Assembly: GCF_000338295.1 (NCBI RefSeq)
Contig: NZ_ANMO01000222.1
Span: 1 to 32,070 of the forward strand
Direction: 5' to 3'
DNA: 32,070 bases
Origin: Rhodopirellula europaea 6C
GTDB taxonomy: Bacteria; Planctomycetota; Planctomycetia; Pirellulales; Pirellulaceae
In this document: positions 4,588 to 29,009 of the stretch, piece after piece
How positions within the stretch are numbered: position 1 is the stretch's first letter
How the letters are laid out: each line of letters begins with the position of its first letter
Position numbers and translations under genes: made by a program
Notes under the pieces: model-generated
The model's database searches: none
Told to the model about the DNA's origin: nothing
Seen by the model: only the letters and a program-made list of their open reading frames with translations

Positions 4588-5850
4588 ATGAACGCAATCC
4601 AATCTCCCAAATCAGTGACGATCGTCGGCTCCGGCATCGTTGGAATCGCTTGTGCCCACTACTTGGCGGAGGCAGGACTCGACGTCACTGTCATCGATCG
4701 TGGCAGCATCGCGGGAGAATGCTCTCACGCGAATTGCGGTTATATCTGCCCCAGCCATGCACTGCCGCTGACTGAACCAGGAGCGTTCTCCGTTGCCTTG
4801 AAATCAGTCTTCAACCCACGATCACCATTCCGAGTCAAACCGCAGGTCAGTCCGGCGCTTTGGAAATGGATGATGCAGTTCGCCAAACGTTGCACCCATC
4901 GGCAGATGCTGGCGGCGGGCAAACCGCTGCAGGCAATCCTGGAAGCCTCGATGAGCGAATACCATTCGCTGATTGAACGGCTGAAGCTCGATTGCGAATG
5001 GAAAGAAGAGGGGCTGCTGTACGTTTTGCAAACCGAACGCGGCATGGAATCTTTTGCGAAAACCGATCGACTGGTGTCCGAAGAGTTCGGAATCCCAGCG
5101 ACTCGCATCGACGGAAACAACCTGCCTAAATTTGATCCCGGTCTAAAAGATGGCTTGGCAGGCGCGTTCCTGTACCCCAACGACACCTCGGTGCGTCCCG
5201 ACAAACTGAACTCGCAATGGGCGACGAATCTAAAAGAACGAGGCGTTCGTTTCGTTGAGAACTGCGAGCTAAAATCAGTCCGAAAAGAAGCCGGCCGGAT
5301 CGTCGCCATCGAAACTAACCAAGGTGACTTCACCGCCGACCACTTCGTTTTCGCGATGGGAGCCTGGAGCACCAAATGGGAATCGGCACTTCAATGTTCT
5401 GTCCCGGTCCAACCGGGCAAAGGCTACTCGGTCACCATCGAGAAACCGGATCACTCGCCCAGTCATGCAATTCTCTTTCCAGAGCACAAGGTTGGCGTCT
5501 CGCCATTTGACGATGGGTTACGCTTCGGATCAATGATGGAATTCGCAGGCTATGACACCTCTATTCCCAAACACCGAATCCAACAACTGCGTGATTCAGC
5601 TCGGCCGTACTTGGTTGCTTCCGTTGACGGGCCAGCCCAATCACAATGGTACGGCTGGCGACCGATGACCTGGGACAGTTTGCCAATCATCGGTTCGCTG
5701 CCGGAACTTAAAAATGGCATGCTTGCGACGGGCCATAATATGTTGGGTTTGAGCCTTGCTCCGGCAACGGGCCGCTTGGTCGCCGAGATGGTCACCGGAC
5801 AAACAACGCACTTGGACCCAACGCCTTACTCTCCGAGCAGGTTTGAATGA
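4588..5850 (+). CDS. DadA-like FAD-dependent D-amino acid oxidoreductase (probable cis-4-hydroxy-D-proline dehydrogenase)
   Basis: A 420-residue DAO-fold flavoprotein. The N-terminal Rossmann motif is TIVGSGIVGIACAHYLAEAG (GxGxxG, residues about 9-30) followed by VTVIDRG for ribose binding. The C-terminal FAD signature is GWRPMTWDSLPIIG and GHNMLGLSLAPATGRLVAE. The chosen start is ATG 4588, 11 bases after the preceding stop; the frame is open back to 4468 but that would overlap the lyase. DadA-type enzymes oxidise D-amino acids and pass electrons to the respiratory chain. Next to a HypD/LhpC-like lyase the best guess is cis-4-hydroxy-D-proline oxidation. A hydroxyproline 2-epimerase and a ketoglutarate semialdehyde dehydrogenase, needed to complete the route, are not in the window. 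Confidence 0.85.
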   Translation: MNAIQSPKSVTIVGSGIVGIACAHYLAEAGLDVTVIDRGSIAGECSHANCGYICPSHALPLTEPGAFSVALKSVFNPRSPFRVKPQVSPALWKWMMQFAKRCTHRQMLAAGKPLQAILEASMSEYHSLIERLKLDCEWKEEGLLYVLQTERGMESFAKTDRLVSEEFGIPATRIDGNNLPKFDPGLKDGLAGAFLYPNDTSVRPDKLNSQWATNLKERGVRFVENCELKSVRKEAGRIVAIETNQGDFTADHFVFAMGAWSTKWESALQCSVPVQPGKGYSVTIEKPDHSPSHAILFPEHKVGVSPFDDGLRFGSMMEFAGYDTSIPKHRIQQLRDSARPYLVASVDGPAQSQWYGWRPMTWDSLPIIGSLPELKNGMLATGHNMLGLSLAPATGRLVAEMVTGQTTHLDPTPYSPSRFE

Positions 5851-6773
5851 ACCGTCGACTGGTCATCTGTGGTTGCCTTCTTCTCTCGACCTGGTCGTTG
5901 GGCAACGGGCAATCGCCACTGCCAGTCAATTCGGGACATTTGCTGCAGACGCCAAAGCTATCCCAAGGGGAGCCTACCGCCGGCAAACGAGTGGCCGTCA
6001 CTCCGGTTGAATACGCCGAAACCGATGTGCACCACACCGTCTACCTTCCTCAAGACTGGACGGCAGACGGAGAATCGTTGCCGATCATCTTCGAATACAC
6101 CGGCAATCACTTTCCAGCGTCAGGTTCGACTGGCGAAGTCGCCGACGCGGGATTGGGATTTGGATTGTCCGCTGGCCAATTCATTTGGGTGACGCTGCCG
6201 TTCATCAGCAACGACCACCAACGCAATCAAATCTCTTGGTGGGGCGACGAAAACGCGACGGTGGAATATGCCAAGCTCAACGTCCCCCGTATCATCAAGC
6301 AGTTTTCCGCGGATCCAGACCAAGTGTTCCTCTGCGGATTTTCGCGAGGTGCAATCGCAGTGAACTACATCGGATTGTATGACGATGAGATTGCTAGCTT
6401 GTGGACCGCCTTCATCACCCATGACCATTTCGATGGCGTTCGCGAGTGGAAAGGAACGGACTGGGGCAGTCCTCTCGCAAGATATCGATCCGAAGCGAGC
6501 AAGCGTCTGAAACGCGTGGGGGATCGCCCCTACTTGATTTGCCAAAATGGTTCGTATGGAACGGAAGAGTTCATTCGCAACCTGCTTCCCGAAGCCCGCA
6601 ATTTCACCTATCTGCCAGTCAACACGTCCGAGGCACTCGGTCCATTCCCAAACGAGTTCGCCAAGGCAGGGCACAACGATCGCTGGCTGAATCGCCCCAG
6701 CCGATATCGTTCAGCGGCTTGGAACTGGATGAACCGTGTTTTGTCTGAGCAGCCAGCGAAGACAACCGACTGA
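5847..6773 (+). CDS. secreted alpha/beta-hydrolase, probable esterase
   Basis: A 308-residue protein with an N-terminal signal peptide (CGCLLLSTWSL, cleavage near GNGQS). The nucleophile elbow GFSRG is present with Ser166, preceded by DPDQVFLCG, as in poly(3-hydroxybutyrate)-depolymerase or esterase-type alpha/beta hydrolases. A late His (AGHNDRW) is a candidate for the triad. The start overlaps the stop of the flavoenzyme gene by ATGA, which implies translational coupling, so it belongs to the same operon as the hydroxyproline-type genes even though it is exported and they are cytoplasmic. Its substrate is unknown; an ester or peptide-like precursor that yields the catabolised amino acid is a possibility. 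Confidence 0.8.
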   Translation: MNRRLVICGCLLLSTWSLGNGQSPLPVNSGHLLQTPKLSQGEPTAGKRVAVTPVEYAETDVHHTVYLPQDWTADGESLPIIFEYTGNHFPASGSTGEVADAGLGFGLSAGQFIWVTLPFISNDHQRNQISWWGDENATVEYAKLNVPRIIKQFSADPDQVFLCGFSRGAIAVNYIGLYDDEIASLWTAFITHDHFDGVREWKGTDWGSPLARYRSEASKRLKRVGDRPYLICQNGSYGTEEFIRNLLPEARNFTYLPVNTSEALGPFPNEFAKAGHNDRWLNRPSRYRSAAWNWMNRVLSEQPAKTTD

Positions 6774-6818: not shown

Positions 6819-9251
6819 TCAGTCACCGTGCCACTTCAGAGGCAAATGCACATTGAACGAATGAAGCTTCTGCTTGGTTTCCTCCGCAGCACAAAATAGC
6901 ACGGTTGGTTTGCCGTCTTCGAGGTACAGTTGCGGGCGTTCAAGACGGTGCACGGACTGCTGAGTTCCGTCCGCCCATGGGATGATGCGTTCCGTCACCA
7001 ATGGTGAATTGGCCGGTTCCCAGTGCAAACCATCGACCGACTGAAACAATGCCAAGGAGTCACTGCCGGTTCCGTTGAAGTGTCCATTGTGATCATTGAC
7101 GATCGCCCAGCACATGCCATCTTGGAACCAGATGTAAGGGTCTTCCGCTGGAAAGGCGACTCCCGGTGCGGTGAACAACGGTTTGTTCTGCTTTCGAAAC
7201 GGTCCCGTCGGTGACTGAGAAGTCGCGGCAAGGTGAACGACCGGGCCTCCAAACGGCATGCGTCTTTTCTTGCCAACCGCTTTGTAAATCAACACAAACG
7301 TCCCATCATCCCGACGCAAGATCGACGGGTTGCTCACCATCAATGCATCCGACGCCGACGCATCTTCGCTGATGTTGATCAGTGGCTCGTCAAAACGTTT
7401 CCATGGTCCGTTGGGGTGATCGGAAACCGCGACACCAATGCGTTGATTGTTGCGATGAATCATATTCAGTTTTCTGGTCGGTGCACCGTCACCCGTGTTC
7501 CCCATGTAGTAGAGGTAGTACTTCCCATCGAACTCATGCACGGTCGGGTTGTGAGTGCACATGCCGTCCCACAGTTGTTCGCCTCGAACGGGCAGGGCAA
7601 CATCGACGAAGTGGTATGGCCCCAGCGGATCATCCGACACCGCGTGAGCAACCTCCGAATGGGTGACCCAAGCATTGTGTCCCGACTCTCGCGGCCAGCG
7701 ACTGTAGAACAGATGGCAGGTGCCGTCGACGTCACGCACCATACTGCCGCCCCAGATGTAGAAATTCTCGTCGATGAATTTCGCTCTCGCTGGCACCGGC
7801 TCAATCATCGAGTTCAAATCCAGCCCCGGACGAGAACGTTCTCCTCGAGCGGCTTTTTCAACAGCCTCTGTTCGTGAGTCCTCTTCTTTCCTGACATTGA
7901 CGCCGTGAGCGTCGTGCCACTTCGGCAGCACATTGCCGGCATCCCAGGCCTCAATCATCCGCGATAGCCGATCCACTTGTTCAGGATGCTGTTCGGCCAA
8001 GTCTTCGCGTTCCCACGGATCGTTCGCCAAATCAAACAACAGCTTTCGGTTCTTGTAGCGACTGTCAACCAACTTCCAATTCCCGTCGCGAACCGCGTAG
8101 CCATACGAATCATCGCCCATCGAGTAACGCCAAAACAACGGGCGTTTGGGCAACTCCGTTCCCGCGTCGGTCAAACCGGCCAACAAGTTTTGGCCGTCCA
8201 GCTTTTCATTCTTGCTCGGGTCCAATCCCGCTGCGGCGAGGACAGTGGGAAAGACATCAAGCGCCGTGACCGGCGATTGCTCTCGAACTCCGCCCGGCAA
8301 AGTCCCTGGCCAAGAAACCAAGAACGGCACCCGAATCCCGCCTTCAAACAGCATGCCCTTGTGACCTCGGTACGGCAAATTCATCGCATGCTCACGCCGC
8401 CCACCGTTGTCGCTGTAAAAGACAATCAACGTGTTATCGTCCAACCCCGATTCGCGAATTTGGTCGACGACTCGCCCAATGCCTTCGTCCATCCCAGCGA
8501 CCATCGCTCCGTAAACCGCTCGACCCCCGTACTCGATGTGTGCCGTCTTCTCCAGATGAGCCCGAGTGGCTTGGTCGGGAGCATGCGGTGCGTTGTACGC
8601 TAAGTACAAAAAGAACGGGTCCGTCTCGTGACGCTGAATGAATTTGACCGCTTCCGTTGAAAAGTCATCCGTCAAATAAGTCAACGACTTGCGATCGACC
8701 GGTTCATCACCGCGATGCACACCGAGCAAAGGATCCATTCTTCCCAAGTCTCCCCAATAGCTCAATCCGCCTCCACTGAAGCCAAACCACTCATCGAATC
8801 CACGGCGATTGGGCCAGAACGGTTTCGCGTCGCCCAGGTGCCACTTGCCAATTGCACCGGTGACATAACCGGCTTCTTTCAAAGCATCCGCAAGCGTCGT
8901 TTCCGAGAGCGGCATCCCCGGCGTGTCGTCACCGTGCCACTGCGGATCCGGTTCAGGGTTGCCCTCATGTCCGAATCGCTGTTGATACCTTCCCGTCAAC
9001 AACCCCGCGCGGCTGGGACTGCAATAGGGATGCGAAGCGTAGCCGTTGGTGAAGACCACGCCTTCCCCCGCCAACTCGTCCAATCGCGGTGTGGGAATCT
9101 CCTTGCATCCATTGAAACCAACGTCGCTGTAGCCAAGGTCATCGGCAACGATCAACACAATGTTCGGACGTTCCTTGGCATCGACACTGGATGCGGCCAG
9201 AACCAAAAGGCCGATCAACATCGAGGACAAAAACTTTGTTCGGTTCAACAT
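6819..9251 (-). CDS. sulfatase fused to a GH43-like beta-propeller domain
   Basis: An 810-residue secreted two-domain enzyme. Signal peptide residues 1-25 ([15 protein letters not shown]). The S1 sulfatase domain spans about 28-450, with metal ligands in [13 protein letters not shown], the formylglycine site [11 protein letters not shown] (Cys77) and the canonical GKWHLG motif. From about 482 to 810 lies a second domain with [53 protein letters not shown] and [11 protein letters not shown], repeated blade-like acidic motifs of five-bladed propeller glycosidases (GH43/GH117-like). The two domains together suggest desulfation plus glycosidic cleavage in one polypeptide. ATG 9251 is chosen because it begins directly at the signal peptide; a GTG at 9302 overlaps the previous stop by GTGA and is an alternative. 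It is the last gene of the minus-strand sulfatase cluster. Confidence 0.85.
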
Positions 9252-9298
9252 AGCAGGCTGCAAGGTGGGAATTGAAACTGAAACGACGGCCAATGAAT

Positions 9299-10972
9299 TC
9301 ACTTCGACTTGTAGTCTTTTTCGCTATCGACGGTGTAGCGAAGCACAGCAGGAAATCCTTTGCCGCGAACTTTCGTAAGCTGTTGCTTCCAAACGATTCG
9401 AAGCTCTTCCAACTGCGTCTTCGCGGCAGGATCGTCGATTAAATTGTTCAACTCGTCGGGATCGGTTTCCAAATCAAACAACTCTTCATAGATCGGTTGC
9501 TCACCTCGCAACGATGCCTCGGCATGATTCCGATACACGGCGATTTCCTTGTCGTGAATGCCATACAGCATGGTGGACGACTTGATACCAAGATCCTTGG
9601 CCACCTGAATCTTGACCGAGGCGGGAACACAATCGTTGCGGTAGTACCGGATGTATTTCCAACGCTTGTCCTGCACCGCCTCAATGCGTGGGTTGCCGAA
9701 ATGAGTCACCCACAAGTTTTCGGTGAAAACATGATCACGAATCGCGCCGCCTTGACCACTCAAAAGTGGCCGCAACGACAGGCCTTGAAAGGTGTCAGGC
9801 TTTTCAATCTCAGCCAGATCCAGCATCGTCGCAGCGATGTCGATCGTTTGAACCAACTCGTTGCAACAAGCCCCTCTCAGTACGGTTGGCAGTTCTGGAT
9901 CGAAGACGATCATCGGCACATGCGTCGTCTGCTCGTAACACAACGCCTTTCCACCAAGACCGTGTTGCCCCATGAACAACCCGTGGTCGGAACAGAAGAT
10001 GATGATCGTGTTGTCGTCCACGCCTTCTGTCTCGAGCTTGGTGCGTAGGTTTCCGATCAAACAATCGATCCCGGTCATGGATTGCATCTGCCGAATGGTG
10101 CGTTCTTTCAACGCCTCGGGAGTGTCGACAAAGTTGTAGCTGGCCTGCCGCTCACTCGCTCGCAACACATCCGCTGGCAAACGCGGCGTTTCAATCTCGT
10201 CCTTCGCAACGTAGTGCTCCGGCAATGGAATCTCGATGTCACGGTAGAGCGACTTGTAGATTTCATCATCGCTTTCTCGCTGTTGCATGGTGCCCGTTCC
10301 CGCACTGTGCGGCAGGTTCAAACAGATGCTCAAGCAAAACGGCTTGTCCGCCGGACGTTCGTCCAGGAATCGCACCGCACCGTCCAAGCGATGTTCATAC
10401 GACATGAAATCCTGAGCACCTTCGTTGACGATTTCGACTTGCGTGTCGTAGGTCGCCCCCTCAAAGATCTCGTGGACGTCTTTGGGATAGAAGCGGATGT
10501 GCCCGTGTCCGGCGTAGAAGAAATCAAACGACTCTTCCATCAAACCGCTGTTGTAGCCGCCCTTTCCAATCGGCGCGTGGTTCTTTCCGACATAGCCGGT
10601 GTAGTACCCGCTCTCTCGCATGATCACAGGATAGGATTTCGCCCAAGCCTCGGGCGCGACACTGGTTCCTGAATTGAAATTCACACCGTGCTTGCGTTCG
10701 TACTGGCTGAGAAAGATCGAAATCCGACTCGGAGTGCAGATCGCACTGGTCACATAGGCTCGATCAAAATAGACGCCTTCGCGAGCCAACTGGTCGATGT
10801 TCGGTGTCCGAGTCAACTCGTTTCCGTCGCAGCCCATCATCCCGTAGGACTGGTCGTCCGTCAGAACGAATAAAAAGTTCGGTCGAGAGTCCGCAGCAGG
10901 CAGGCTGGTAGCACACATCGCCGCGAAAAACAGCAAGATTCGTGCAATTCTTTTCAAAGAGTAGATTCGCAT
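9299..10972 (-). CDS. secreted S1 sulfatase
   Basis: A 557-residue sulfatase. The signal peptide is [19 protein letters not shown]. The sulfatase start is [14 protein letters not shown], the formylglycine motif is [11 protein letters not shown] (Cys79), and the second active-site motif is GKNHAPIG, keeping Lys and His but not the Trp. A later metal-site block reads [16 protein letters not shown]. The family hydrolyses sulfate esters after conversion of Cys to formylglycine; no maturase is encoded in the window. ATG 10972 is preferred since it starts at the signal peptide; the frame is open further upstream to 11083 but that would overlap the neighbouring gene. It is 61 bases downstream of the lectin-fold gene and 47 bases before the fused sulfatase, probably the same transcript. 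Confidence 0.9.
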
Positions 10973-11033
10973 GAGTTCGGGTTTATGCAGGGAAGAGCAG
11001 GGCAGGGGAGAAAGAGCGGGAAACAAACCAAGT

Positions 11034-11753
11034 TCACTCGGTCGCGAAAACACGAAGGTTGTCAAAATCGATGCTGCTTCCATTCACGGTCATTCCGAAC
11101 TGAGTCTTGGTCGGATGAGCGAAGCCGGGAGAATCCAACGAGACCACTTCTTTGCCATCGAGGTGAACAGTCATCACGGTCCCATGGATGGTCAGTTCCA
11201 AGTGATGCCAGGTGCCCGGCTTGGCATGGATGGCGGCGGAGGCTTGCGTGCGAGCCAACAGGTTCTCCAATTCTTTCTGTTGTTCCGCCGGCAGCGATTT
11301 CGCCTTTCGTTTTTCGCGAACTTCCAGATTCATCAAACCGAGTTTGTCATCGCTGATCATCATCCGTTTTGGTGTCAGTGATGCACGAGCCACATGCCCG
11401 GCATGCACGGATTTTTCATTGTTATCGTCGATCACAAAATTGAACCGACTTCCTCCGTTGAATCGAAAGTCAAACGCAACATGCAAATCAGCAAACTCCA
11501 TTTGCTTTCGCATGATCGAACCATGGTCGTCCCGCACTTGCTTTCCGAACAACACGCCATCTTGAAGATTCCATCCGGCCTCCATCCCTGACCCCACCCG
11601 ATAACCATCCCCAAGAACCGAACGACCGTCAAACGAATCTTCGAACACCACTTCTTTCTCGGAAACGGCACTCGATCCTTCTTCCGCAAGAAGCATCGGT
11701 TGTGAAAGAAAACAAAGCGTTGAAAACGCGATCAGGCAGGCAACTCGAGACAT
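11034..11753 (-). CDS. secreted lectin-fold (DUF1080-like) protein
   Basis: A 239-residue protein with signal peptide (CLIAFSTLCFLSQPMLLA). The mature part looks like a concanavalin/LamG jelly roll: VVFEDSFDG near the start, GWNLQDGVLFGKQ, HVAFDFRFNGGSRFNFVID, then KPGTWHHLELTIHGTVMTVHLDG and a closing IDFDNLRVF. This order of strands resembles DUF1080 (3-keto-disaccharide hydrolase-type) proteins, but it is shorter than its neighbour at 11817 and lacks that family's clear FDGxxxxxW opening. A Lys/Glu-rich insert (EKRKAKSLPAEQQKELENL) is unusual. It could bind or cleave glycans. It sits in the middle of the sulfatase cluster with 61-63 base spacers on both sides. Confidence 0.75.
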   Translation of the reverse strand: MSRVACLIAFSTLCFLSQPMLLAEEGSSAVSEKEVVFEDSFDGRSVLGDGYRVGSGMEAGWNLQDGVLFGKQVRDDHGSIMRKQMEFADLHVAFDFRFNGGSRFNFVIDDNNEKSVHAGHVARASLTPKRMMISDDKLGLMNLEVREKRKAKSLPAEQQKELENLLARTQASAAIHAKPGTWHHLELTIHGTVMTVHLDGKEVVSLDSPGFAHPTKTQFGMTVNGSSIDFDNLRVFATE

Positions 11754-11816
11754 CGGACCAAACTTTCAAACAGTGATACTGGGCAAGGCAATCGGGAGAA
11801 AACGTCTCTGTTTCCG

Positions 11817-12827
11817 CTACTTGGCAGAGGACCTCGGGACGATCCAAATGTTTCGAAACCGGTTGGGATTGCCGTGGTTTTGAAGATAGATCGGACCTTC
11901 CGCCACTTCGGGTCTTGGACCTGCTGGCCCGCGCCCCGTTCCCTCTGGCAGTTCCACACGGTCGTGAATCAGGACACCATTTTGGTGCACCGAGATCACT
12001 GCGGACTGGACCTTCATTCCGTCCTCGAATCTGGCGGCGGTGAAGTCGATTACCATGCTCTGCCATGCCAGCGGAGGCAGGCAAACATTCCAATCGGCTT
12101 CGCGAATTCCGTAGATGCTTCCGCACCATGTGTTGACGGGTTTCAACATGACAATGTCCTGCCATGCCTCGGGACGGGGGTCCAATCCAAAGTTGTCAGA
12201 GATCTGCACTTCATAGGCACCGACCGCGAAAACGCCACTGTTGCCGCGATGCGGGTGACTGACCGGCGGCTCAGGTTTCAGCGGAATTTGAAATTCAAGG
12301 TACAGTCGGAAATCCTGAAACGTTGCTTTGGTTCTTGCTCCCGCTTTGAGAACACCATCCTCGATCTTGCCGTTCTTCCAAGCGTTCGTGTTCGTGCCAT
12401 CGAACAACACGATCGCGTCAGCCGGTGGCTTCTTTCCGACAACCGATGCACTGCGATCAATCTTTTGCCAACCAGCAACACGCGACTCGATTCCCTCGCG
12501 ATCCGACCACTCATGCACGACAGGACTGCCATCCCAACCTGTGCCGGGAAATCCACCGTCGTACACCGAAACGTAGAACCGGCCCTCAGACGGAGTGACC
12601 TGCATCGCTTGATTGTCGCGAACAAATTCGCCGACAAACTCAAATCCATCGAATTCCGCTCGAGCTTTCCCAGCGTTGGTCCAGACGAAGGCATTGGGAT
12701 ATGGCTGAATCTTCGGTTTCGTTTTTGCGGTCGTGTCCGCGGCCAGTGCGCCGCACACAGGACCAACAACCATCAAAAAGAGAGCACAAAGACAAACAGG
12801 CACTTTGGAGCGAGCTTTCATTGACAT
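11817..12827 (-). CDS. secreted DUF1080 (3-keto-disaccharide hydrolase-type) protein
   Basis: A 336-residue secreted protein. The signal peptide is VPVCLCALFLMVVGPVCGALA. After an N-terminal segment of about 100 residues comes the DUF1080 core: AIVLFDGTNTNAWKNG, FQDFRLYLEFQIP, HRGNSGVFAVGAYEVQISD, GSIYGI, WQSMVIDF, NGVLIHDRVELPEGTG and GPIYLQNHGNP, in the family's normal order. Members of this family act with Gfo/Idh/MocA oxidoreductases in an oxidation-dependent route of glycoside cleavage through 3-keto sugars. Here such an oxidoreductase is encoded immediately upstream. ATG 12827 is preferred (12821 is nearly equivalent); a GTG at 12899 overlaps the previous stop by GTGA. Confidence 0.87.
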   Translation of the reverse strand: MSMKARSKVPVCLCALFLMVVGPVCGALAADTTAKTKPKIQPYPNAFVWTNAGKARAEFDGFEFVGEFVRDNQAMQVTPSEGRFYVSVYDGGFPGTGWDGSPVVHEWSDREGIESRVAGWQKIDRSASVVGKKPPADAIVLFDGTNTNAWKNGKIEDGVLKAGARTKATFQDFRLYLEFQIPLKPEPPVSHPHRGNSGVFAVGAYEVQISDNFGLDPRPEAWQDIVMLKPVNTWCGSIYGIREADWNVCLPPLAWQSMVIDFTAARFEDGMKVQSAVISVHQNGVLIHDRVELPEGTGRGPAGPRPEVAEGPIYLQNHGNPNRFRNIWIVPRSSAK

Positions 12828-12895
12828 CGAACACGTGACTTGATTGAGGAAGACGACTACACAGGGAGGGGCATCATGCGGGTAACGCAAACGCC

Positions 12896-14269
12896 TCACA
12901 TGTCGATCTCATAACCAGACCGATAGGGTCGTTTCATCATCGCAGCGGCCTGTTCATCGCCAACGACACTTTCTGTCGCTTGATCCCACTCGACTTTGCG
13001 TCCAAACCGACAACAGATGCCGGCCAAGTGACACACGTTGAGCATCTTCATGTGGGAATGCACGTCGGAAATCGGCAGCACTCGATTGTCAATCGCATGC
13101 ATGAAGTTCGCCCAGTGTGCAGGGCGGTCATTGCCTTCCATGGGCATCCCGCAATAAATCTTCGAAATCGCATCTTCGGCTAGCGGGTTCGATTCCAAGT
13201 CTTCAACGGGTTTGCCAACCAGCTTGCCACGATTGACAAAGATCCGGCCTCGTTCGCCTTCAAACAAAATCCCATTGTCGACGTCATGGCGAATGTTCAT
13301 CTCGACATCGCCATCCGCGAAAACGACGCGAAGATCAAACGCTCGTGCGGTGTTGTAGCGATTGTTCTGCAGCGGCATTCCGTCGCGAAACTCCACATCA
13401 TGTTTCGCGGTTCCGTCAACTAAAACGGGGTCATTGTTCTGCCCCGCCGCGGCGATCCCCAGCATCGCGATGTCAACGTGGTGGGCTCCCCAGTCGGTCA
13501 GTTTGCCTCCGGAGTGTTCGTACCACCAACGGAAGTGAGTGTGCCCATTGGTGTAGTTCTTGTCCGCTCGCTTGGCGTCCTTCGCATAGCGATATTCCAT
13601 TTTAGGCCCCGGCCCCAGCCAACGATCCCAGTCCAATCCTTTGGGCACGCCGGCGACGGGAATCTCGGGACTCCATCCCCCCGCGTCGATTCCAACGACC
13701 AAGCGCTTAAGTTTGCCCAGGCGACCTTCCGCGATGATTGCCAGAGCACGATTGAACTTGTCGAAACTGCTGCGTTGCTGCGTTCCGACTTGAACGACAC
13801 GTCCGGTTTGCTGTTGAACCTTCCGGACCAACTTTCCTTCGTCGATCGTCAACGTCAGCGGTTTTTCACAGTACGCATCTTTGCCCGCCAACATCGCCTC
13901 AATCAGAATTTTTGCGTGCCAGTGATCGGGCGTTGAAATCTGAACCAAGTCAATGTCATCGCGAGAAAGCACTTCGCGGTAGTCACGAAACAATTCGGCT
14001 TTGCCATCACACAGCAATTCGTTGCCATGCTTCAGATGATCTTCGTCGACATCACACAGCGCGACCAAGTCCGCGAATTCTTTTCCAACGGGCGAAGTCC
14101 GTGTCCCATTTCCGCCGACGCCGATCAACGCAAACCGTTTGCGTTCGTTCGGTGATTTCGCGAGTGATTGCCGAGCAGGCATGGCCCACGGAGTCAGAGT
14201 AGCCGCCGTGACAAATCCGGCGGTCTTCAAAAGATCTCGGCGTGACTGGGAGGCTTGGGGAAAGCTCAT
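12896..14269 (-). CDS. Tat-exported Gfo/Idh/MocA oxidoreductase
   Basis: A 457-residue protein that begins with SRRDLLK (Arg10-Arg11), a clear twin-arginine signal. The Rossmann motif is LIGVGGNGTR (residues about 48-57) followed by LVALCDVDEDH; the family's EKP catalytic motif is at 135-137 (CEKPLTLT). Later GGKLTDWGAHHVDIAMLG carries the conserved Asp/His pair. Tat export implies folding with bound NAD(P) in the cytoplasm, as for Zymomonas glucose-fructose oxidoreductase. A role in oxidising a sugar hydroxyl on a glycan, paired with the DUF1080 protein directly downstream, is the likely function by family knowledge. Substrate unknown. The start at 14269 is fixed by the Tat motif. Confidence 0.9.
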   Translation of the reverse strand: MSFPQASQSRRDLLKTAGFVTAATLTPWAMPARQSLAKSPNERKRFALIGVGGNGTRTSPVGKEFADLVALCDVDEDHLKHGNELLCDGKAELFRDYREVLSRDDIDLVQISTPDHWHAKILIEAMLAGKDAYCEKPLTLTIDEGKLVRKVQQQTGRVVQVGTQQRSSFDKFNRALAIIAEGRLGKLKRLVVGIDAGGWSPEIPVAGVPKGLDWDRWLGPGPKMEYRYAKDAKRADKNYTNGHTHFRWWYEHSGGKLTDWGAHHVDIAMLGIAAAGQNNDPVLVDGTAKHDVEFRDGMPLQNNRYNTARAFDLRVVFADGDVEMNIRHDVDNGILFEGERGRIFVNRGKLVGKPVEDLESNPLAEDAISKIYCGMPMEGNDRPAHWANFMHAIDNRVLPISDVHSHMKMLNVCHLAGICCRFGRKVEWDQATESVVGDEQAAAMMKRPYRSGYEIDM

Positions 14270-14361
14270 GAACGATCAATCGTGACGGAATGGGACAGTG
14301 GGTTTGAAATGCGTCACTCATCGAAGGAGCGAATCAACAAATGATTCGCCCCGCGAGAGTG

Positions 14362-15915
14362 TCACTTCTTTTTCTTCTTCAGATTTCGTTGCTGCGAACG
14401 GATGGTCACGCCCGGCCGTTGCATCTTCGAATTCACGTCACGAAAAACCCAGGGTTCCCAGGCCTTGCGAGCCGATTCCCACTGTTCCAACGTTCGAGTC
14501 GGATACCAACTTGGCCATCCGAATTTCTCGTAGTCGTACTTGTCCGCATTCGCGTGAACCCACTCATCGACAGAACCCGCAGGCAGCGTTTCCGGATAGA
14601 CGTCCAACGCGCGAAACTCGTCGCTCACACCCTCGTCTTGAATCACTTCACGACGCCATTGCTCGAGTTCCCGTAGCATTTTTTCTCGAACATTGGCGTA
14701 CTTGGGATCGTCGGCGACATTGTGGACTTCATGCGGATCCGTTCGCAGATCGTACAGTTCCAACTCCGGTTTCGTCGGAGCAAAGAAAGCCGCTTGTTCG
14801 GGTGTGAGTTCGCCACGCATGTGCATGACGTTCATTTCAGCTAGCACTGGGTAAGCCCCTTCCTTGTACTGGTTGTATTGGCAGTACGCTCGCTCAGGCA
14901 TCAAGTTGTGAATCAGCTTGAAGTCCGCTGACCGGATCGCTCGCATCGCATCATGCGTTTCGTCCATTTTGTCTCGCGAGGCAAAGACATACTGACGATT
15001 CCGAACCTCTTCGCTCAACAGATTCTTTCCATGCAGAGGCACGGGGGCATCGATCCCAGCAGCTTCCAAAATCGTCGCGCAGATGTCGATCGACATCACC
15101 ATGTCATCGCTGACTTCACCTGGCGAAACCTTGCCCGGCCAACGCATGATCATGGGAATACGAATCCCACCGTCGTAGAGGAACTGCTTGCCGCGAATGT
15201 GACACCGACCATGGTCTCCTATGAAGAACACAATCGTGTTGTCGGCGAGACCTTCCTCGCTGAGTCGTTTCAGTATCTCGCCGACCTCACGGTCAACCAA
15301 TTGCATCTGCTCCAATCCGTTGGCCCAATCACGTCTGACAAAGGGCGTGTCGGGATAGTGGGGCGGCAACTCAACATCTTCGATCGCGATGGGTCGTTGC
15401 GGGTCGCGTTTCCATTGCCGGTGAGTGCCACCGAACGTGATCCGAGCAAAGAACGGCTGCCCGTCGGTTCGTTGGTTCCAATCGGTGCCATCAAACAGTT
15501 CATCCTTCTGGTCTGGCAAGAAATTGCAGTCCGTTTTGTAGCTCATCAATGCGGTGAAGTAGCCCGCATCGGCAAACAGATGCGGGATTGGCCGAATCCC
15601 GTGCGGCAACGGTTGCTTGTCATATTCGCGATGTTGATTGGCACCAATGAAATTCTGGTGGAACCCCGTCATCATCGCTGAACGCGAAGTCGAACAGACC
15701 GGCGAAGTCGTGAAGGCTCGTTCGTACCGAATCCCTTCGGATGCCAGTTTGTCGACATTGGGTGTATGGATCCCCTTTGTGCCGTAACACGACAAATCGG
15801 GGGACCAATCTTCGATCGTGATCCAAAGCACATTGGGACGGTCGTCCGCGAAAGCGGAAGCAGCATCCACAACACCAATGGCGAAAACCAAAAGCAGAGA
15901 AAGCACGAATTTCAT
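14362..15915 (-). CDS. secreted S1 sulfatase with variant CSTSR signature
   Basis: A 517-residue sulfatase with signal peptide KFVLSLLLVFAIGVVDAASA. The sulfatase start is NVLWITIEDWSPDLSCYG. The formylglycine motif reads CSTSRSAMMTG (Cys74), with Thr in place of the usual Pro or Ala. The second motif is SYKTDCNFL instead of GKWHLG: Lys kept, His absent. Such variants occur in heparan N-sulfatase-like groups, from memory, so this probably marks a subfamily rather than inactivity. The C-terminus ends in a run of five lysines. ATG 15915 is chosen at the signal peptide; upstream in-frame codons to 16032 would overlap the preceding sulfatase gene. It lies 61 bases after that gene. Confidence 0.88.
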   Translation of the reverse strand: MKFVLSLLLVFAIGVVDAASAFADDRPNVLWITIEDWSPDLSCYGTKGIHTPNVDKLASEGIRYERAFTTSPVCSTSRSAMMTGFHQNFIGANQHREYDKQPLPHGIRPIPHLFADAGYFTALMSYKTDCNFLPDQKDELFDGTDWNQRTDGQPFFARITFGGTHRQWKRDPQRPIAIEDVELPPHYPDTPFVRRDWANGLEQMQLVDREVGEILKRLSEEGLADNTIVFFIGDHGRCHIRGKQFLYDGGIRIPMIMRWPGKVSPGEVSDDMVMSIDICATILEAAGIDAPVPLHGKNLLSEEVRNRQYVFASRDKMDETHDAMRAIRSADFKLIHNLMPERAYCQYNQYKEGAYPVLAEMNVMHMRGELTPEQAAFFAPTKPELELYDLRTDPHEVHNVADDPKYANVREKMLRELEQWRREVIQDEGVSDEFRALDVYPETLPAGSVDEWVHANADKYDYEKFGWPSWYPTRTLEQWESARKAWEPWVFRDVNSKMQRPGVTIRSQQRNLKKKKK

Positions 15916-15976
15916 GAAGGCAACTGAAGAGTAGGTTGGGAAAGGTAGATAAAAAGCATCCGTCAATCGAATGGGC

Positions 15977-17458
15977 TCAATAGGCGCCGTTTGTCCCGAA
16001 CATCTCTTTCTTGGATGGACGTGGACGGACACGGACCGAGTGATCTGGCTCGCCCGTCACACGGTCAAACTCATCGGGTGTTCGTCGACTTGGCAAGTAG
16101 TCACCCGTTCGCTTCGTCCAATCAGTGAGTGCGGTTTGCAATCGCGTGCGTACCGAGTGATAGGCCGGGTCCTCGAAGCGATTGTGCAGTTCGCCGGGGT
16201 CGCGTTGCAGATCATAAAGTTCCCACTTTGCACGAGGTGAAGTGAAACAAGCCGATTGTTCGGGCGTGAGTTCTCCCGCGTCATACAAACGCAGCATGGC
16301 TTGCCAAGTCAGGCCCCGTCCCGCGTCAGCGGATGGTGTTGGAGGAAGGTCGACGTAGTCATTGCGAATCAACTTGTATTGCTGGGTCGCCACGGCGCGA
16401 GCATGGTCCTCGTAGTCGTGCCAGTGATCTTCCGCAAAAGCGAATTCGCGATGCGATTGCGTGCTGTCTTTCAAAACCGGAATAAAGCTTTTGCTCGAAG
16501 CGGAGAATGCTTCGCTGCCTTCCACGCCAGCCAATTCCAAGAACGTGGCACCAATGTCAACCGCGCTGACCAAAGCCTTCGTCGTCTGGCCCGCCTTGAC
16601 TTGGTCGGGATAACGAACGATCCACGGGGTTCGGATTCCACCATCGTAGAGCGATGTCTTGTCACGAGGGAACGGACGGCCATTGTCGCTGATGAAGAGA
16701 ACGACCGTGTTGTCAGCGACGCCCTGTTCGGCCAGTTTTCGCATCACCTTGCCGACGTAGGAATCGAGACGCCCAATCTCGTCATAGTAAAGACGCAGGT
16801 CTTCGCGGACATCAGGAACGTCTGGAAGGTGCGGAGGAACGATCACGTCGTCGTGTGTGTGAGGTGGATCCAGGGCACCGTCGTTGTATTCGCGGTGCGG
16901 GTCCAGAGCGGCCAACCACAGGAAAAACGGTTGATCCTTGGGACGTTCCTCGCAAGCTCGTTCCCAATCTTCGCAACCACTGGGCTGCGCCGCGATCATC
17001 TTGGCAGGTTGTCCGTCTTTTCCACTGGGGAGCACAAAACCGGCCGTCGAGGCTTCGTAGATTTTGTCGAAGTGATCGCGAACAGCGTCTCCCATGTGCC
17101 ATTTGCCAGCCGCGGCGGTGTAATAGCCCGCTGACTGCAATCGCCCCACGAATGTGTCGCTTGATTCCGGCAACGGCCAGTGCAACTGTTCCGCGCCCGT
17201 GTTGTGGGGATACTTGCCTGTGATGATGCTCGCACGGGATGGGCTGCAGGAATTCGTGGTCAGGTAAGCGTGTTCGAAACGCATGCCTTCCGCTGCCAGA
17301 CGATCGATATTGGGAGTGCGAATCGCCGGATGACCATAGGCCCCGCAATCGTCCCAGTTCATGTCATCCGCGATGATCAGAACGATGTTCGGAGGGGACT
17401 GAGCCATCACGGACGAGGTGATGTAACAAGCGATCAGAGCAACAAGGAATCGGTGCAC
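15977..17458 (-). CDS. secreted S1 sulfatase
   Basis: A 493-residue sulfatase starting with GTG at 17458, directly at a signal peptide (FLVALIACYITSSVMAQ). Sulfatase block NIVLIIADDMNWDDCGAYG, formylglycine motif CSPSRASIITG (Cys71), canonical GKWHMGD, and NTVVLFISDNGRPFPRD as the late metal site. The architecture and CSPSR signature fit iduronate-2-sulfatase or heparan-type groups broadly, but substrate cannot be assigned. It is the first gene of a tightly spaced seven-gene minus-strand run ending at 6819, and a promoter for that run should lie in the 448-base region upstream. Confidence 0.9.
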   Translation of the reverse strand: MHRFLVALIACYITSSVMAQSPPNIVLIIADDMNWDDCGAYGHPAIRTPNIDRLAAEGMRFEHAYLTTNSCSPSRASIITGKYPHNTGAEQLHWPLPESSDTFVGRLQSAGYYTAAAGKWHMGDAVRDHFDKIYEASTAGFVLPSGKDGQPAKMIAAQPSGCEDWERACEERPKDQPFFLWLAALDPHREYNDGALDPPHTHDDVIVPPHLPDVPDVREDLRLYYDEIGRLDSYVGKVMRKLAEQGVADNTVVLFISDNGRPFPRDKTSLYDGGIRTPWIVRYPDQVKAGQTTKALVSAVDIGATFLELAGVEGSEAFSASSKSFIPVLKDSTQSHREFAFAEDHWHDYEDHARAVATQQYKLIRNDYVDLPPTPSADAGRGLTWQAMLRLYDAGELTPEQSACFTSPRAKWELYDLQRDPGELHNRFEDPAYHSVRTRLQTALTDWTKRTGDYLPSRRTPDEFDRVTGEPDHSVRVRPRPSKKEMFGTNGAY

Positions 17459-17906
17459 GAGAATCCAGCAGGAGAGAGGCGGGTAAACGTTCGCTTTCGC
17501 AAGAAAACGCGAACATCAACGAAGATGCCTCGAGTCGACACGAAGCCCTCTGCGGCGTCGGCAACGCCCTTCAGAGATCCTATACGTCAAACATCGAGCC
17601 TTCAGCGGCCCGCCAGTCTACACCGATTCCGAGATTCTCGCGCCGGTCCTCAACGCGTGAAAACGAGTTTTCAATCAATCCAAACGTATAGATCCCAGTC
17701 GGTTCAGGGGAGACTCCCGCGGCCCCATCACCACTGAGCCTCTATACATCTCACACGGGATTTCTCTTCGCTTCCGACAACCGTTTCGCATCAATCGATT
17801 GTCTGCAGATCCTCGTCACCACGACGTGAGTGAGTCGTGTCGATGGACTGACCAAACACCCAATCGGTCCCGCGATCCCCATCGGAATCGTCCTCTGCTC
17901 CGTCGT
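17459..17906. other. 448-bp spacer upstream of the sulfatase run
   Basis: No protein or RNA gene is convincing here. The region must hold the promoter of the seven-gene minus-strand run and the end of the SGNH hydrolase transcript. A 6-bp stem, 8-base loop hairpin (CACGAC / GTCGTG) occurs at 17820-17839 and is a weak terminator candidate for the SGNH gene. TATA-containing words occur at 17580-17586 and 17684-17691, but I could not pair them with a good -35 box. Confidence 0.4.
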
Positions 17907-19055
17907 TCACTGCACGCCGATTGCTTTGCGAAGCACGGGATCAAACACGTCGGCCTGACGCATGAAACCAAGGTCGCTGGCGTGAGAACCATCGGTCGCT
18001 CCGTCGCCATCGGTTCCATAAAGTTCATCGCCAGCGATGTAGTGCAGCCCCGTCACGCCGTCGGCAAGCAGCGACTTGTACGCCGCCTGCAGAGCCTCAT
18101 GATTCGCAGTGTGATGAGCATCACGTGCGGGCAAGATCCAACTGTTTGTGTTCCGGCGATCTTCCACCAAAACAATCGGCGTGTCCGGTTTCGCGGCACG
18201 AAGTTGCTTGACCAACGGAATGCACCTTTCGGTCACCATCGCCGCATTCATGTTGGGCAGGCAATCGATGACGTAGACCGCTGCGTCGACTTGGACCAAG
18301 AACTCTCCGACTTCAGCATGCATCTTTCCATTGCCAGAAAAGCCCAGGTTCACGACCGGCTGATCGAAACGACGTCCCAAAATCGCGGTGTGGACCATAC
18401 CAGGACGGCTAGCACAAGCTCCGTGTGTGATGCTGGTTCCGTAGAACACGATCGGCTTCTCACGTGTCGGCAACTGTTCGAATTTGCTGTCCGGCGAAAC
18501 ACCAATCTTCAACGACTCGATGCCATTGTAAAGCGGAAGGTAAGCGGCGTACTCACGCATCCCCGGTGCCAATGAATCAATGACCTTTGTTTTGACTTCT
18601 TGTGATGTCGGGCGAGTGACCTGCACCCATCGCCAGTTGCCTTCACCGTCGCGGGCATAAAAATCGACCCCGCTGACTCCGGTCGCAGGCATGTGCGGCA
18701 TCGCCAGATTCTTGTTCAGCAATTTGTAGTGCGCGTGAATGGAGGTGGCATCTGTTTTGAATCGAACCATCATTCCCGCAGAGTGACGACTCAGGTTCCA
18801 AACGTTTGAAGTCACCGAACCGTTGGCGGACGCCGGGAATCGATCAAACCATCTCGCACGTTCTTGGTCGGGCAAGATCCTTCCTTCGATGTTCTGCTCC
18901 GCGACGTCGTACCACGCGACGCCGTCCTCGACCGTTCGGCCGGTCGCCATCTCAGGATCCAAATTGCCGATCGAGTCGGCAACCTTCTCTTGAGCCTCAA
19001 CCGGGACGATAAACCAAGGCAACACAGCGACGAAAATGAACCATCGAATCTTCAT
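17907..19055 (-). CDS. secreted SGNH/GDSL hydrolase, probable carbohydrate esterase
   Basis: A 382-residue protein with signal peptide IRWFIFVAVLPWFIVPVEAQ. The N-terminal ~190 residues form the beta-rich accessory domain typical of this group (SANGSVTSNVWNLSRHSAGMMVRFKTD). The catalytic domain starts with VFYGTSITHGA, placing the nucleophile at Ser208, then NLGFSGNG (oxyanion Asn/Gly), and the terminal DGSHASD supplies Asp355 and His358. All SGNH blocks are intact. Family members deacetylate polysaccharides or cleave other sugar esters. It is upstream of the sulfatase run and on the same strand but 448 bases away, so it may be separately transcribed. Removing acyl groups would complement sulfate removal. 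Confidence 0.88.
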   Translation of the reverse strand: MKIRWFIFVAVLPWFIVPVEAQEKVADSIGNLDPEMATGRTVEDGVAWYDVAEQNIEGRILPDQERARWFDRFPASANGSVTSNVWNLSRHSAGMMVRFKTDATSIHAHYKLLNKNLAMPHMPATGVSGVDFYARDGEGNWRWVQVTRPTSQEVKTKVIDSLAPGMREYAAYLPLYNGIESLKIGVSPDSKFEQLPTREKPIVFYGTSITHGACASRPGMVHTAILGRRFDQPVVNLGFSGNGKMHAEVGEFLVQVDAAVYVIDCLPNMNAAMVTERCIPLVKQLRAAKPDTPIVLVEDRRNTNSWILPARDAHHTANHEALQAAYKSLLADGVTGLHYIAGDELYGTDGDGATDGSHASDLGFMRQADVFDPVLRKAIGVQ

Positions 19056-23620: not shown

Positions 23621-23866
23621 CGACCTTAGAATTCCGTGACTTATTTGCTGCAAACGAGAAGATCCTCGGAAGAACGAAGCTTAGTCTAATCCCATCACAT
23701 GCAATGAAGTGGTACGAGCGGTTCGTCAAATTGCGAGTGATGCCTAAACGACTTCTTTGCAAAGCAGACGTGGTGTGAGCATTTGGTCGTTAGTCGCGGC
23801 AATTGCCCGCAGGCTCGTGTCTGTCCGCAGATTTCGTAAACAGCAAACTTGTTTTCAAACGCCCTC
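23621..23866. promoter_or_regulatory. divergent promoter region with two 10-bp palindromes
   Basis: The gap between the AraC gene and the pectinolytic operon contains two perfect palindromes, CTTTGCAAAG at 23755-23764 and GGCAATTGCC at 23798-23807, 43 bases apart centre to centre, near four helical turns. They are candidates for regulator binding or for hairpins. AraC proteins usually bind direct repeats, so the link is uncertain. Confidence 0.35.
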
Positions 23867-25432: not shown

Positions 25433-25521
25433 CGAAGCCTCTGTTTACTCGTCGCGAAAAACGACAGAGACCTTTTCTATCGAAAACTGCCACCTCCCCA
25501 CACTTCACCAAGTCCCCATCC

Positions 25522-26889: not shown

Positions 26890-26961
26890 GCGTTTTTAAC
26901 AGCAACGCTCTTGACGCATTCGTTTTACCTCGCAACCACCGTTGAATACGGACCACGCTTC

Positions 26962-28977: not shown

Positions 28978-29009
28978 ACCTGCCCACAACCATCAACTTC
29001 CACCGCTTT

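Follow-up and report, generated by a model that had tools for sequence, protein, structure and literature searches.

How marine planctomycetes with more than 100 sulfatases cut the chains that they desulfate is largely open. The genome of Rhodopirellula europaea 6C has 122 sulfatase places, and 110 sulfatases are given for R. baltica (PMC2754498). Because sulfatase use by these bacteria is poorly known, a locus that places sulfatases beside a Gfo/Idh/MocA oxidoreductase (Gfo/Idh) and DUF1080 (PF06439) proteins raises the question of whether, on what substrate, and by which chemistry desulfation is joined to chain cleavage. The locus, at positions 6819–19055, is in a 32,070-nucleotide stretch of contig NZ_ANMO01000222.1 (the window). 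A sequence-only reading proposed an exported pathway that desulfates, deacylates, oxidizes, and then cleaves a glycan. Comparisons support a recurring association of Gfo/Idh, DUF1080, and sulfatase genes; they lend the deacylation step no syntenic support and show neither a glycosidase-free locus nor a fixed gene order.

Gene Content and Organization of the Locus

The eight consecutive minus-strand genes are of the families first read from the sequence; Pfam matches identify four PF00884 sulfatases, an SGNH hydrolase, Gfo/Idh, and PF06439 (3keto-disac_hyd) (table 1). Gaps among the first seven genes are 47, 61, 63, 68, 92, and 61 bases, as had been claimed (47–92), with lengths that depend on start codons chosen for signal-peptide consistency. 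Export of all eight proteins, also claimed, is consistent with hydropathy: seven have a clear N-terminal hydrophobic stretch (12-residue mean of 2.2–3.0), and in Gfo/Idh the stretch that follows SRRDLLK is weaker (1.13). The genome has one match to TatC. The cluster had been said to lack SusC/D, and a Pfam scan of 20 window proteins shows no such pair; nor do the eight genes include a sugar isomerase or transporter with a Pfam match. A scan for promoters and terminators was uninformative (2 and 12 sites, each under the shuffled mean). The protein of the convergent gene adjoining SulfA had no significant match in a PDB search (best E of 0.19); in genome G369, one frame (L151:8660-10651) joins its homolog (64%) to a GH117-like domain (75%).

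Table 1. Features in and next to the locus, in window positions.
Feature	Position	Strand	Basis
Unknown-family protein, convergent, adjoins SulfA	5847..6773	+	No Pfam match
SulfA, S1_19-like sulfatase (CSPSR) with C-terminal GH117-like domain	6819..9251	-	Pfam Sulfatase, 225 bits
GH117-like five-bladed propeller domain, C-terminal in SulfA	about 6822-7802	-	Glyco_hydro_43, 44 bits
SulfB, sulfatase (CTPSR), recurs in module	9299..10972	-	Pfam, 149 bits
DUF1080b, diverged PF06439 protein	11034..11753	-	46.6 bits (cut-off 26.8)
DUF1080a, PF06439 3-keto-disaccharide hydrolase-like, conserved N-terminal extension	11817..12827	-	115 bits (cut-off 26.8)
Gfo/Idh/MocA oxidoreductase, Tat-type SRRDLLK leader	12896..14269	-	PF01408 + PF19051
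SulfC, S1_8-like sulfatase (CSTSR)	14362..15915	-	PDB 9bb9 S1_8A, 4.1e-105
SulfD, S1_8/sulfamidase-like sulfatase (CSPSR)	15977..17458	-	PDB 4mhx, 4.1e-50; 9bb9, 3.1e-48
SGNH/GDSL hydrolase	17907..19055	-	PF14606 + PF14607; 448 bases from neighbor

Sulfatases and a Glycosidase-Like Domain

The structures closest to the sulfatase part of SulfA are 6bia (named Sulfatase; 8.7e-95), the kappa-carrageenan sulfatase 6prm (1.2e-93), and 9hh3 (S1-19; 1.2e-92). SulfB is closest to 6hr5 (6.4e-62), which we take to be an ulvan sulfatase. The formylglycine motif of S1 sulfatases is C-x-P/A-x-R. It is present in SulfA, SulfB, and SulfD and not in SulfC, despite the strong match of the latter to an S1_8A structure; each of the SulfC orthologs (69–91%; L031, L035/L074, L082, L162, and L164) likewise has CSTSR. 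SulfD has a close ortholog only in G130 (L031, 93%), with best matches in other compared loci of at most 32%. Searches of the compared loci with the SGNH protein (tblastn at 1e-10 or blastp at 1e-8) found a match only in this same, fully syntenic relative. As judged by sequence comparison, neither SGNH nor SulfD is conserved in the module, and the SGNH gene probably lies outside it; synteny thus lends no support to the proposed deacylation.

The locus does contain a glycosidase-like component, which had been missed, in the GH43/GH117-like domain at the C terminus of SulfA. This domain matches 3r4y (1.5e-10), and in a Foldseek search with its AlphaFold model (pLDDT of 93.5), rows 1–16 were all GH117 or neoagarobiose/anhydrogalactosidase entries, identifying these as the closest fold. 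One row at TM 0.62 is just under these 16. Though the propeller fold is that of GH117 anhydro-L-galactosidases (BpGH117, SdNABH, Zg3597, and Zg3615), identity to their structures is only 16–18% (TM of 0.66–0.68, rmsd of 4.5–6.6). Unlike these enzymes, the domain is fused to a sulfatase and belongs to its own sequence family (14 aligned sequences, 64% mean column identity), in which D26, H30, E50, D79, H84, E220, D221, and E288, among others, are invariant in all 14; its role as a glycosidase is putative.

Gfo/Idh and DUF1080 Proteins

Gfo/Idh is a probable glycoside 3-dehydrogenase, as judged from its relatives. Its best NCBIfam match is the glycoside 3-dehydrogenase BT_2158 family, at 116 bits far below the cut-off of 750. 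It aligns with its best PDB matches, 8tdf (1.6e-22) and 8tdh, including at the EKP and D/H motifs, and RR, EKP, and TDWGAHH are invariant in all nine aligned sequences. Alternatively, Gfo/Idh could by itself be a GH109-like, redox-neutral glycosidase, with the DUF1080 genes unrelated to it. GH109 enzymes have a Tat leader on a Gfo/Idh fold, and matches include the alpha-N-acetylgalactosaminidase 2ixa (3.2e-5), which is presumably a GH109 member, and 6t2b (named GH109; 2.7e-4). A GH109/Gfo-Idh protein of unknown function is reported as most abundant on arabinogalactan in Maribacter (PMC11036162). However, the closest solved structures are not those of GH109, and the Gfo/Idh clade co-occurs with DUF1080a, making this alternative very unlikely.

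DUF1080a belongs to PF06439 and retains the family motifs NSG, GxY, and QxH, with 4qhz as its best PDB match (8e-20). Its model is only fair (pLDDT of 72) and has Foldseek matches to 4qhz, 3hbk, 3u1x, and 8tda, a 3-keto-2-hydroxy-glucal hydratase of B. theta, the last of which is weak (E of 2.5e-3, probability of 1.00). DUF1080b, earlier read as another protein of lectin fold, is likewise a PF06439 member, though a diverged one. In a profile alignment, it is without the NSG and QxH motifs; in an alignment of seven sequences, it has its own set of invariant H, D, N, and R residues. Profiles of DUF1080a and DUF1080b, built from shallow alignments, do not match each other.

These features bear on whether the locus could be purely hydrolytic, with both DUF1080 proteins acting as ordinary glycosidases or as carbohydrate-binding modules of concanavalin-like fold, no 3-keto chemistry on the polymer, and Gfo/Idh in a side role such as handling released monosaccharide. 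A classical glycosidase fold is present in the GH117-like domain, and DUF1080b, without family motifs, recurs as an attachment to sulfatases, a placement expected of a binding module. DUF1080 is also reported as a periplasmic domain of planctomycete kinases (PMC11032199). We consider a purely hydrolytic locus doubtful, given the motifs kept by DUF1080a, the invariant polar residues of DUF1080b, and the pairing of DUF1080a with Gfo/Idh genes, which in G075 (L163) extends to another Gfo/Idh (38% identity).

Recurrence across Pirellulaceae

Within the genome of strain 6C alone, co-location of these families is only weakly above chance. For this comparison we took 122 of the 125 sulfatase matches and 44 of the 47 Gfo/Idh matches, having dropped rows under the cut-off and additional fragments of a single gene, and merged 32 DUF1080 matches into 27 places, the window's two DUF1080 genes counting as one. 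DUF1080 is within 3 kb of Gfo/Idh at 4 of 27 places (random mean of 0.97, maximum of 6 in 2000 draws) and within 3 kb of a sulfatase at 6 of 27 (2.5 expected), whereas Gfo/Idh is as close to a sulfatase at 6 of 44 (4.3 expected). Therefore, the case for an association comes from comparison across genomes. The number of places and the last of these proximities would suit a chance neighborhood in a sulfatase-rich genome, but recurrence in relatives, the contrast with a paralog clade, and domain fusions contradict this explanation, which is highly improbable.

Gfo/Idh belongs to a distinct clade that has 18 further loci (69–94% identical) and is present in 9 of 149 Pirellulaceae genomes; among the best 80 of 363 relatives kept, 14 are in the clade. 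We compared 19 clade loci (the window, L031, L033, L036, L038, L071–L083, and L089; second copies L032, L034, L035, and L037 excluded) to 21 paralog loci (50–60% identity; a subset of those found, six from genomes also holding the clade). Within 10 kb of Gfo/Idh, 16 of the 19 clade loci have a sulfatase, 11 have a DUF1080 gene, and 11 have both, in contrast to 7, 1, and 0 of the 21 paralog loci, although mean flanks are shorter in the clade (15.8 vs. 17.3 kb); several compared loci run into contig ends. Collapsing sister pairs (window/L031, L036/L038, and L072/L083) leaves 16 loci, with a sulfatase in 13, DUF1080 in 10, and both in 10. With the general DUF1080 HMM alone, 9 of 19 clade loci have DUF1080; counts from the DUF1080b and GH117-like HMMs lean toward the clade because these were built partly from its loci. 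GH117-like domains are near clade Gfo/Idh in eight loci, with strong matches in the window, L031, L071, and L082 and weak ones (32–54 bits) in L072, L079, L081, and L083. Sulfatase, DUF1080, and GH117-like genes are all missing from the stretch examined in three clade loci (L073, L077, and L080).

The same association is seen at the level of genomes. SulfB orthologs (52–86%; the copy in the window counted) are in eight of nine clade genomes and 4 of 140 others, DUF1080a in seven of nine and 1 of 140, the GH117-like domain in eight of nine and 8 of 140, and a GH16 beta-porphyranase in five of nine and 1 of 140. DUF1080a directly adjoins Gfo/Idh in 7 of the 19 clade loci, is far from it in genomes G087, G141, and G075, and is absent from G011 and G115. 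In G130, stop codons break both DUF1080b and the GH117-like domain. Whether the order of Gfo/Idh, DUF1080, and sulfatase genes is conserved was surveyed, and it is not fixed; both order and strand vary. The locus is, by these sequence comparisons, a patchy and reshuffled gene set.

Fused proteins link the same domains. Sulfatase–DUF1080b fusions occur in five relatives (L035/L074, L151, and L156 by Pfam; L076 and L082 by our own HMMs), a sulfatase–sulfatase–DUF1080a fusion in L162, a DUF1080–GH117-like fusion in L032, and sulfatase–GH117-like fusions in the window, L082, and L168. A fusion-like GH2–Gfo/Idh frame in R. maiorica (L037/L078) was not counted because its GH2 barrel, cut short, covers 82 of 302 profile positions and a match starting from residue 7 of the window's Gfo/Idh puts the Tat leader inside the frame.

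Predicted Function and Substrate

We put at about even the chance that the locus encodes an exported, modular system in which desulfation, a GH117-type glycosidase, and 3-keto cleavage together act on a red-algal sulfated galactan. S1_19-, S1_8-, and SulfB-type sulfatases would strip sulfate, and the GH117-like domain of SulfA would remove a terminal, alpha-linked residue (L-galactose- or anhydrogalactose-like). Gfo/Idh, with NAD(P) bound before Tat export, would oxidize a free 3-OH on a galactose unit, and DUF1080a would then use elimination and hydration to break the glycosidic linkage next to the 3-keto group. Apart from the recurrence, co-occurrence, and fusions, this explanation draws on PMC9007349, in which DUF1080 proteins figure as 3-ketoglycoside hydrolases. 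Counted against it are the nearest relatives of SulfA and SulfB, the low Gfo/Idh score, the weak 8tda match and fair model of DUF1080a, the stop codons in G130, the genomes with DUF1080a distant (three) or absent (two), the three empty clade loci, the lean of the DUF1080b and GH117-like HMMs toward the clade, and the near-chance co-location within strain 6C.

The substrate could also differ while the chemistry is the same. We think it less likely than not that ulvan, carrageenan, fucoidan, or a sulfated glycan of some other kind takes the place of porphyran or agaran; this judgment concerns the substrate, and the mechanism overlaps with that of the preferred explanation. The nearest structure to SulfB and the named carrageenan relatives of SulfA fit such a substrate, as does GH29 (the alpha-L-fucosidase family), which is near Gfo/Idh in L033 and adjoins it in L077. 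Conversely, the GH117-like domain and a GH16 gene that adjoins Gfo/Idh in Rhodopirellula rubra, R. sallentina, and Aporhodopirellula aestuarii, together with the skew of GH16 toward clade genomes, point to red-algal galactan; the best PDB match of the R. sallentina protein is the beta-porphyranase 4awd (8e-105). We infer that agaran or porphyran is somewhat more likely than carrageenan. Neither the genome of strain 6C nor that of its closest relative, G130, has a homolog of this GH16 protein at E ≤ 1e-30, and the substrate of the window's own locus may therefore differ.

A more elaborate version, which we regard as unlikely, is that the secreted proteins form a split glycosidase, redox-neutral overall, that acts on a sulfated polysaccharide of marine origin. 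Gfo/Idh, holding on to its NAD(P), would oxidize C3, one DUF1080 protein would eliminate, DUF1080b would hydrate, and Gfo/Idh would reduce the 3-keto sugar again after its release; an outside supply of cofactor would then be unnecessary. Sulfatases and GH117-like domains would be physically coupled to this system through fusion, and DUF1080b, given its invariant residues and recurrent sulfatase fusions, would represent a PF06439 type with a new function.

Comparison with Known Systems and Implications

In Bacteroides thetaiotaomicron, BT2157–BT2160 form a 3-keto glycan pathway of glycoside 3-dehydrogenases and a DUF1080 hydrolase/hydratase, which Nasseri et al. reportedly described in Nature in 2024. 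The locus shares with it Gfo/Idh, aligned to 8tdf and 8tdh, and a PF06439 protein, DUF1080a, whose fold weakly resembles that of 8tda. It differs in a Gfo/Idh far below the BT_2158 equivalog cut-off, in having four sulfatases, a GH117-like domain, and a diverged second DUF1080, and in the lack of an isomerase or transporter among its eight genes. Porphyran and agar utilization loci of Bacteroidota have GH16, GH117, GH29, GH2, and S1 sulfatases. Relatives of the window carry a similar set (GH16 beta-porphyranase, GH117-like, GH29, GH2, and S1 sulfatases), whereas the window is without SusC/D and GH16 and adds Gfo/Idh and DUF1080. Caulobacter also uses periplasmic C3 oxidation, of lactose, followed by proposed DUF1080 cleavage, but its dehydrogenase is the membrane-bound LacABC complex rather than a soluble Gfo/Idh, and sulfatases are not mentioned in the passages on this system (PMC9007349). 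In the accessible parts of the literature, mostly outside subscription journals (including PMC9007349, PMC4807772, PMC2754498, PMC11131199, PMC11032199, and PMC11036162), we found no such locus joining DUF1080 or 3-keto cleavage with sulfatases, and no mention of GH117, GH109, or Gfo in that of PMC11131199.

The locus and its fused relatives offer a small set of proteins for joint expression and assay, and red-algal galactan is the substrate with which to begin. If the preferred explanation is true, 3-keto cleavage of glycans extends from the simple glycosides of gut bacteria to marine sulfated polysaccharides, and the exported set would cut a chain by two routes at once, an ordinary glycosidase and an oxidize-then-cleave pair.

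Gene Content of the Locus

The window genome comprises 7.19 Mb in 273 contigs. The window sequence and Pfam bear out the eight minus-strand genes and short gaps of the sequence-only reading. Its gene list stands for content, except that it overlooked the glycosidase-like domain that the first sulfatase (SulfA) carries at its C-terminus, and the small protein that it called a second lectin-fold protein is a second PF06439 protein (DUF1080b). The latter is a stand-alone gene with SulfB and DUF1080a on either side. The locus is fully syntenic with that of genome G130. There, in-frame stops break both the GH117-like domain and DUF1080b, and hence the G130 locus may be decaying. The protein encoded convergently to SulfA has a homologue in the same frame as the GH117-like domain at locus L151.

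Coordinates of features in the window and at other loci
Feature	Location	Strand
SulfA (C-terminal GH117-like domain)	window 6819..9251	minus
SulfB	window 9299..10972	minus
DUF1080b	window 11034..11753	minus
DUF1080a	window 11817..12827	minus
Gfo/Idh	window 12896..14269	minus
SulfC	window 14362..15915	minus
SulfD	window 15977..17458	minus
SGNH	window 17907..19055	minus
Protein convergent to SulfA	window 5847-6773	
Pectin cluster	window 23849-30023	plus
Second cluster, window genome	L046:8729-17010 (G000:C142)	minus
Frame with DUF1080a-like stretch, window genome	G000:C269:23859-24671	
GH117-like domain and DUF1080b broken by stops, G130	L031:3231-4211, 7640-8356	
DUF1552 and PSD/PSCyt genes, G141	L168:9307-13160	
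1714-residue protein, G053	L158:4311-9455	

A second cluster of the window genome encodes a sulfatase, a DUF1080 protein, a Gfo/Idh protein (27% identical), and three sulfatases. Elsewhere in the window, a pectin cluster of Sde182-like, PelZ-like pectate lyase (159 bits vs. 840), GH127, and PL1 genes is kept at 84–92% in G130. The GH127 scores 954.6, barely over the 950 that NCBIfam sets for aceric acid hydrolase. Aceric acid, a sugar of rhamnogalacturonan-II, is unexpected for a marine bacterium.

Recurrence across Genomes

Co-location within the window genome alone is weakly above chance, and across genomes the Gfo/Idh–DUF1080–sulfatase association exceeds chance. Both co-occurrence in 149 Pirellulaceae genomes and neighborhood counts show this. 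A Gfo/Idh relative of some kind (E ≤ 1e-80) is present in 146 of the 149 genomes, and nine, counting the window genome, hold the clade of orthologues at least 72% identical to the window protein. Clade genomes are enriched in orthologues of DUF1080a (7/9 vs. 1/140 others) and SulfB (8/9 vs. 4/140), the GH117-like domain (8/9 vs. 8/140), and a GH16 beta-porphyranase (5/9 vs. 1/140), with Fisher p of ∼1e-6 to 1e-9, or 8e-4 to 1e-7 by genus, genomes not being independent.

In a species-level scan (one genome each for 84,980 species), 14 of the best 80 of 363 Gfo/Idh relatives fell in the clade at ≥69% identity, and below the clade identity among these 80 falls to 49%. With the window, G130, G141, G011, and G075, these 14 yield 19 clade loci, which we contrasted with a set of 21 paralogue loci at 50–60% identity, six of them from genomes that also hold the clade. 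Within 10 kb of Gfo/Idh, sulfatases occur at 16 of 19 clade loci versus 7 of 21 paralogue loci, DUF1080 at 11 versus one, both together at 11 versus none, and GH117-like domains at eight (four weak) versus none; flanks are shorter on average for clade loci. The DUF1080b and GH117-like HMMs were partly built from clade loci, and the general DUF1080 HMM alone gives 9 of 19. Three clade loci (L073, L077, and L080) have no sulfatase, DUF1080, or GH117-like gene within 10 kb; in L077, a GH29 adjoins Gfo/Idh.

Domains of the module are also fused to each other. The GH117-like domain is joined to a sulfatase in the window (by Pfam), L082, and L168, to DUF1080 in L032 (strain CA13), to an FAD oxidoreductase in L155, and to GH2 in L157; Pfam GH43 scores of L157 and L168 are slightly under cut-off. 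Sulfatase–DUF1080b fusions occur in L035/L074, L151, and L156 by Pfam and in L076 and L082 by custom HMMs. In L162 (genome G112), two sulfatase domains and DUF1080a share a single 1390-residue frame, and the one TGA flagged in the DUF1080a match coincides with the frame's own end.

Predicted Functions

By sequence, the SulfA glycosidase domain matches GH117 (3r4y, 1.5e-10). Its AlphaFold model (pLDDT 93.5, built from 14 sequences) has GH117, alpha-neoagarobiose hydrolase, or anhydrogalactosidase entries as its first 16 Foldseek matches (TM 0.66–0.68, 16–18% identity). As modeled, the domain is a GH117-fold relative far from characterized members. At L131, a Prolixibacteraceae MAG locus from another phylum, a GH117-like gene (59%) is close to two Gfo/Idh genes and a GH29. 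At L158, a protein with ThuA, GDSL, DUF7133, and copper-binding domains adjoins a GH117-like gene and is possibly an exported redox partner.

Sulfatase subfamilies are named by nearest match only: in sequence, SulfA is closest to 6bia (8.7e-95), followed by kappa-carrageenan sulfatase 6prm and S1-19 entries, SulfB to 6hr5 (6.4e-62), SulfC to S1_8A 9bb9 (4.1e-105), and SulfD to sulfamidase 4mhx (4.1e-50). SulfC and its orthologues in L031, L035/L074, L082, L162, and L164 all have the formylglycine site CSTSR, with Thr where Pro/Ala is usual.

Gfo/Idh contains PF01408 and PF19051. Among NCBIfam models it comes closest to BT_2158, a glycoside 3-dehydrogenase (116 bits vs. a cut-off of 750), and its EKP and D..H motifs align with those of the nearest PDB entries, 8tdf and 8tdh; R10-R11, EKP, and TDWGAHH are invariant in nine of nine aligned sequences. 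DUF1080a retains the family motifs and is nearest to 4qhz (8e-20). With a pLDDT of 72, its model is no more than fair; in Foldseek it matched 4qhz, 3hbk, 3u1x, and 8tda (E 2.5e-3, probability 1.00), the last described as a B. theta 3-keto-2-hydroxy-glucal hydratase. The NSG and QxH motifs of PF06439 are absent from DUF1080b, which has its own invariant polar residues among seven sequences, including H77, H117, H120, R123, D135, D136, N142, R146, H183, and H213. A DUF1080a-like stretch (41–47% identity) also lies in a ∼1,200-residue frame with relatives in many Pirellulaceae genomes.

Judging by family, the sulfatases would desulfate and the GH117-like domain would hydrolyze. Family relationship, fold, and pairing suggest that Gfo/Idh oxidizes C3 and that DUF1080a cleaves. 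Gfo/Idh may be exported by Tat with bound cofactor, given its leader, TatC, and the precedent of glucose–fructose oxidoreductase. In 4-linked L-galactose units of agaran and porphyran, the 3-OH stays free, making internal oxidation possible.

The main alternative is a purely hydrolytic sulfated-glycan locus. Its chief support is an endo-xanthanase named within the DUF1080 family in PMC9007349, together with a kinase-associated use of DUF1080 in PMC11032199. PMC9007349 also names the DUF1080 protein BT2157 a 3-ketotrehalose hydrolase and proposes another for 3'-ketolactose. The preferred reading of the module is a putative combination of desulfation with GH117-type and 3-keto cleavage. There is precedent for 3-keto cleavage, for porphyran loci, and for GH117 separately. 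In the part of the open-access literature covered, no report joins 3-keto cleavage, porphyran-type enzymes, GH117, and sulfatases in one exported, fusion-linked module.

Substrate

In three species, R. rubra, A. aestuarii, and R. sallentina, Gfo/Idh is followed by a GH16 gene. The one from R. sallentina has beta-porphyranase 4awd as its nearest PDB relative (8e-105), and the other two are 73–74% identical to the R. sallentina gene. The G141 locus, on one strand over ∼25 kb, has GH16, two DUF1080b, a second Gfo/Idh, a sulfatase–GH117-like fusion, and GH29, followed by SulfB, SulfA, DUF1080, two further sulfatases, and the Gfo/Idh orthologue. DUF1552 and planctomycete cytochrome (PSD/PSCyt) genes also lie within it, and pairs resembling these, judged by N-terminus only, are in L074, L151, and L160.

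PMC4807772 reports three beta-porphyranase genes apiece for R. rubra and R. sallentina. It also describes GH43/GH117 matches within sulfatases from three Porphyra-associated planctomycetes, taken there as distant relationship. Judging from genomes other than those three, fusions like the present ones are a possible alternative reason. The window genome has no homologue of the R. sallentina type of GH16 at E ≤ 1e-30, so porphyran itself is uncertain for it, and our best guess for the window substrate is a red-algal galactan.
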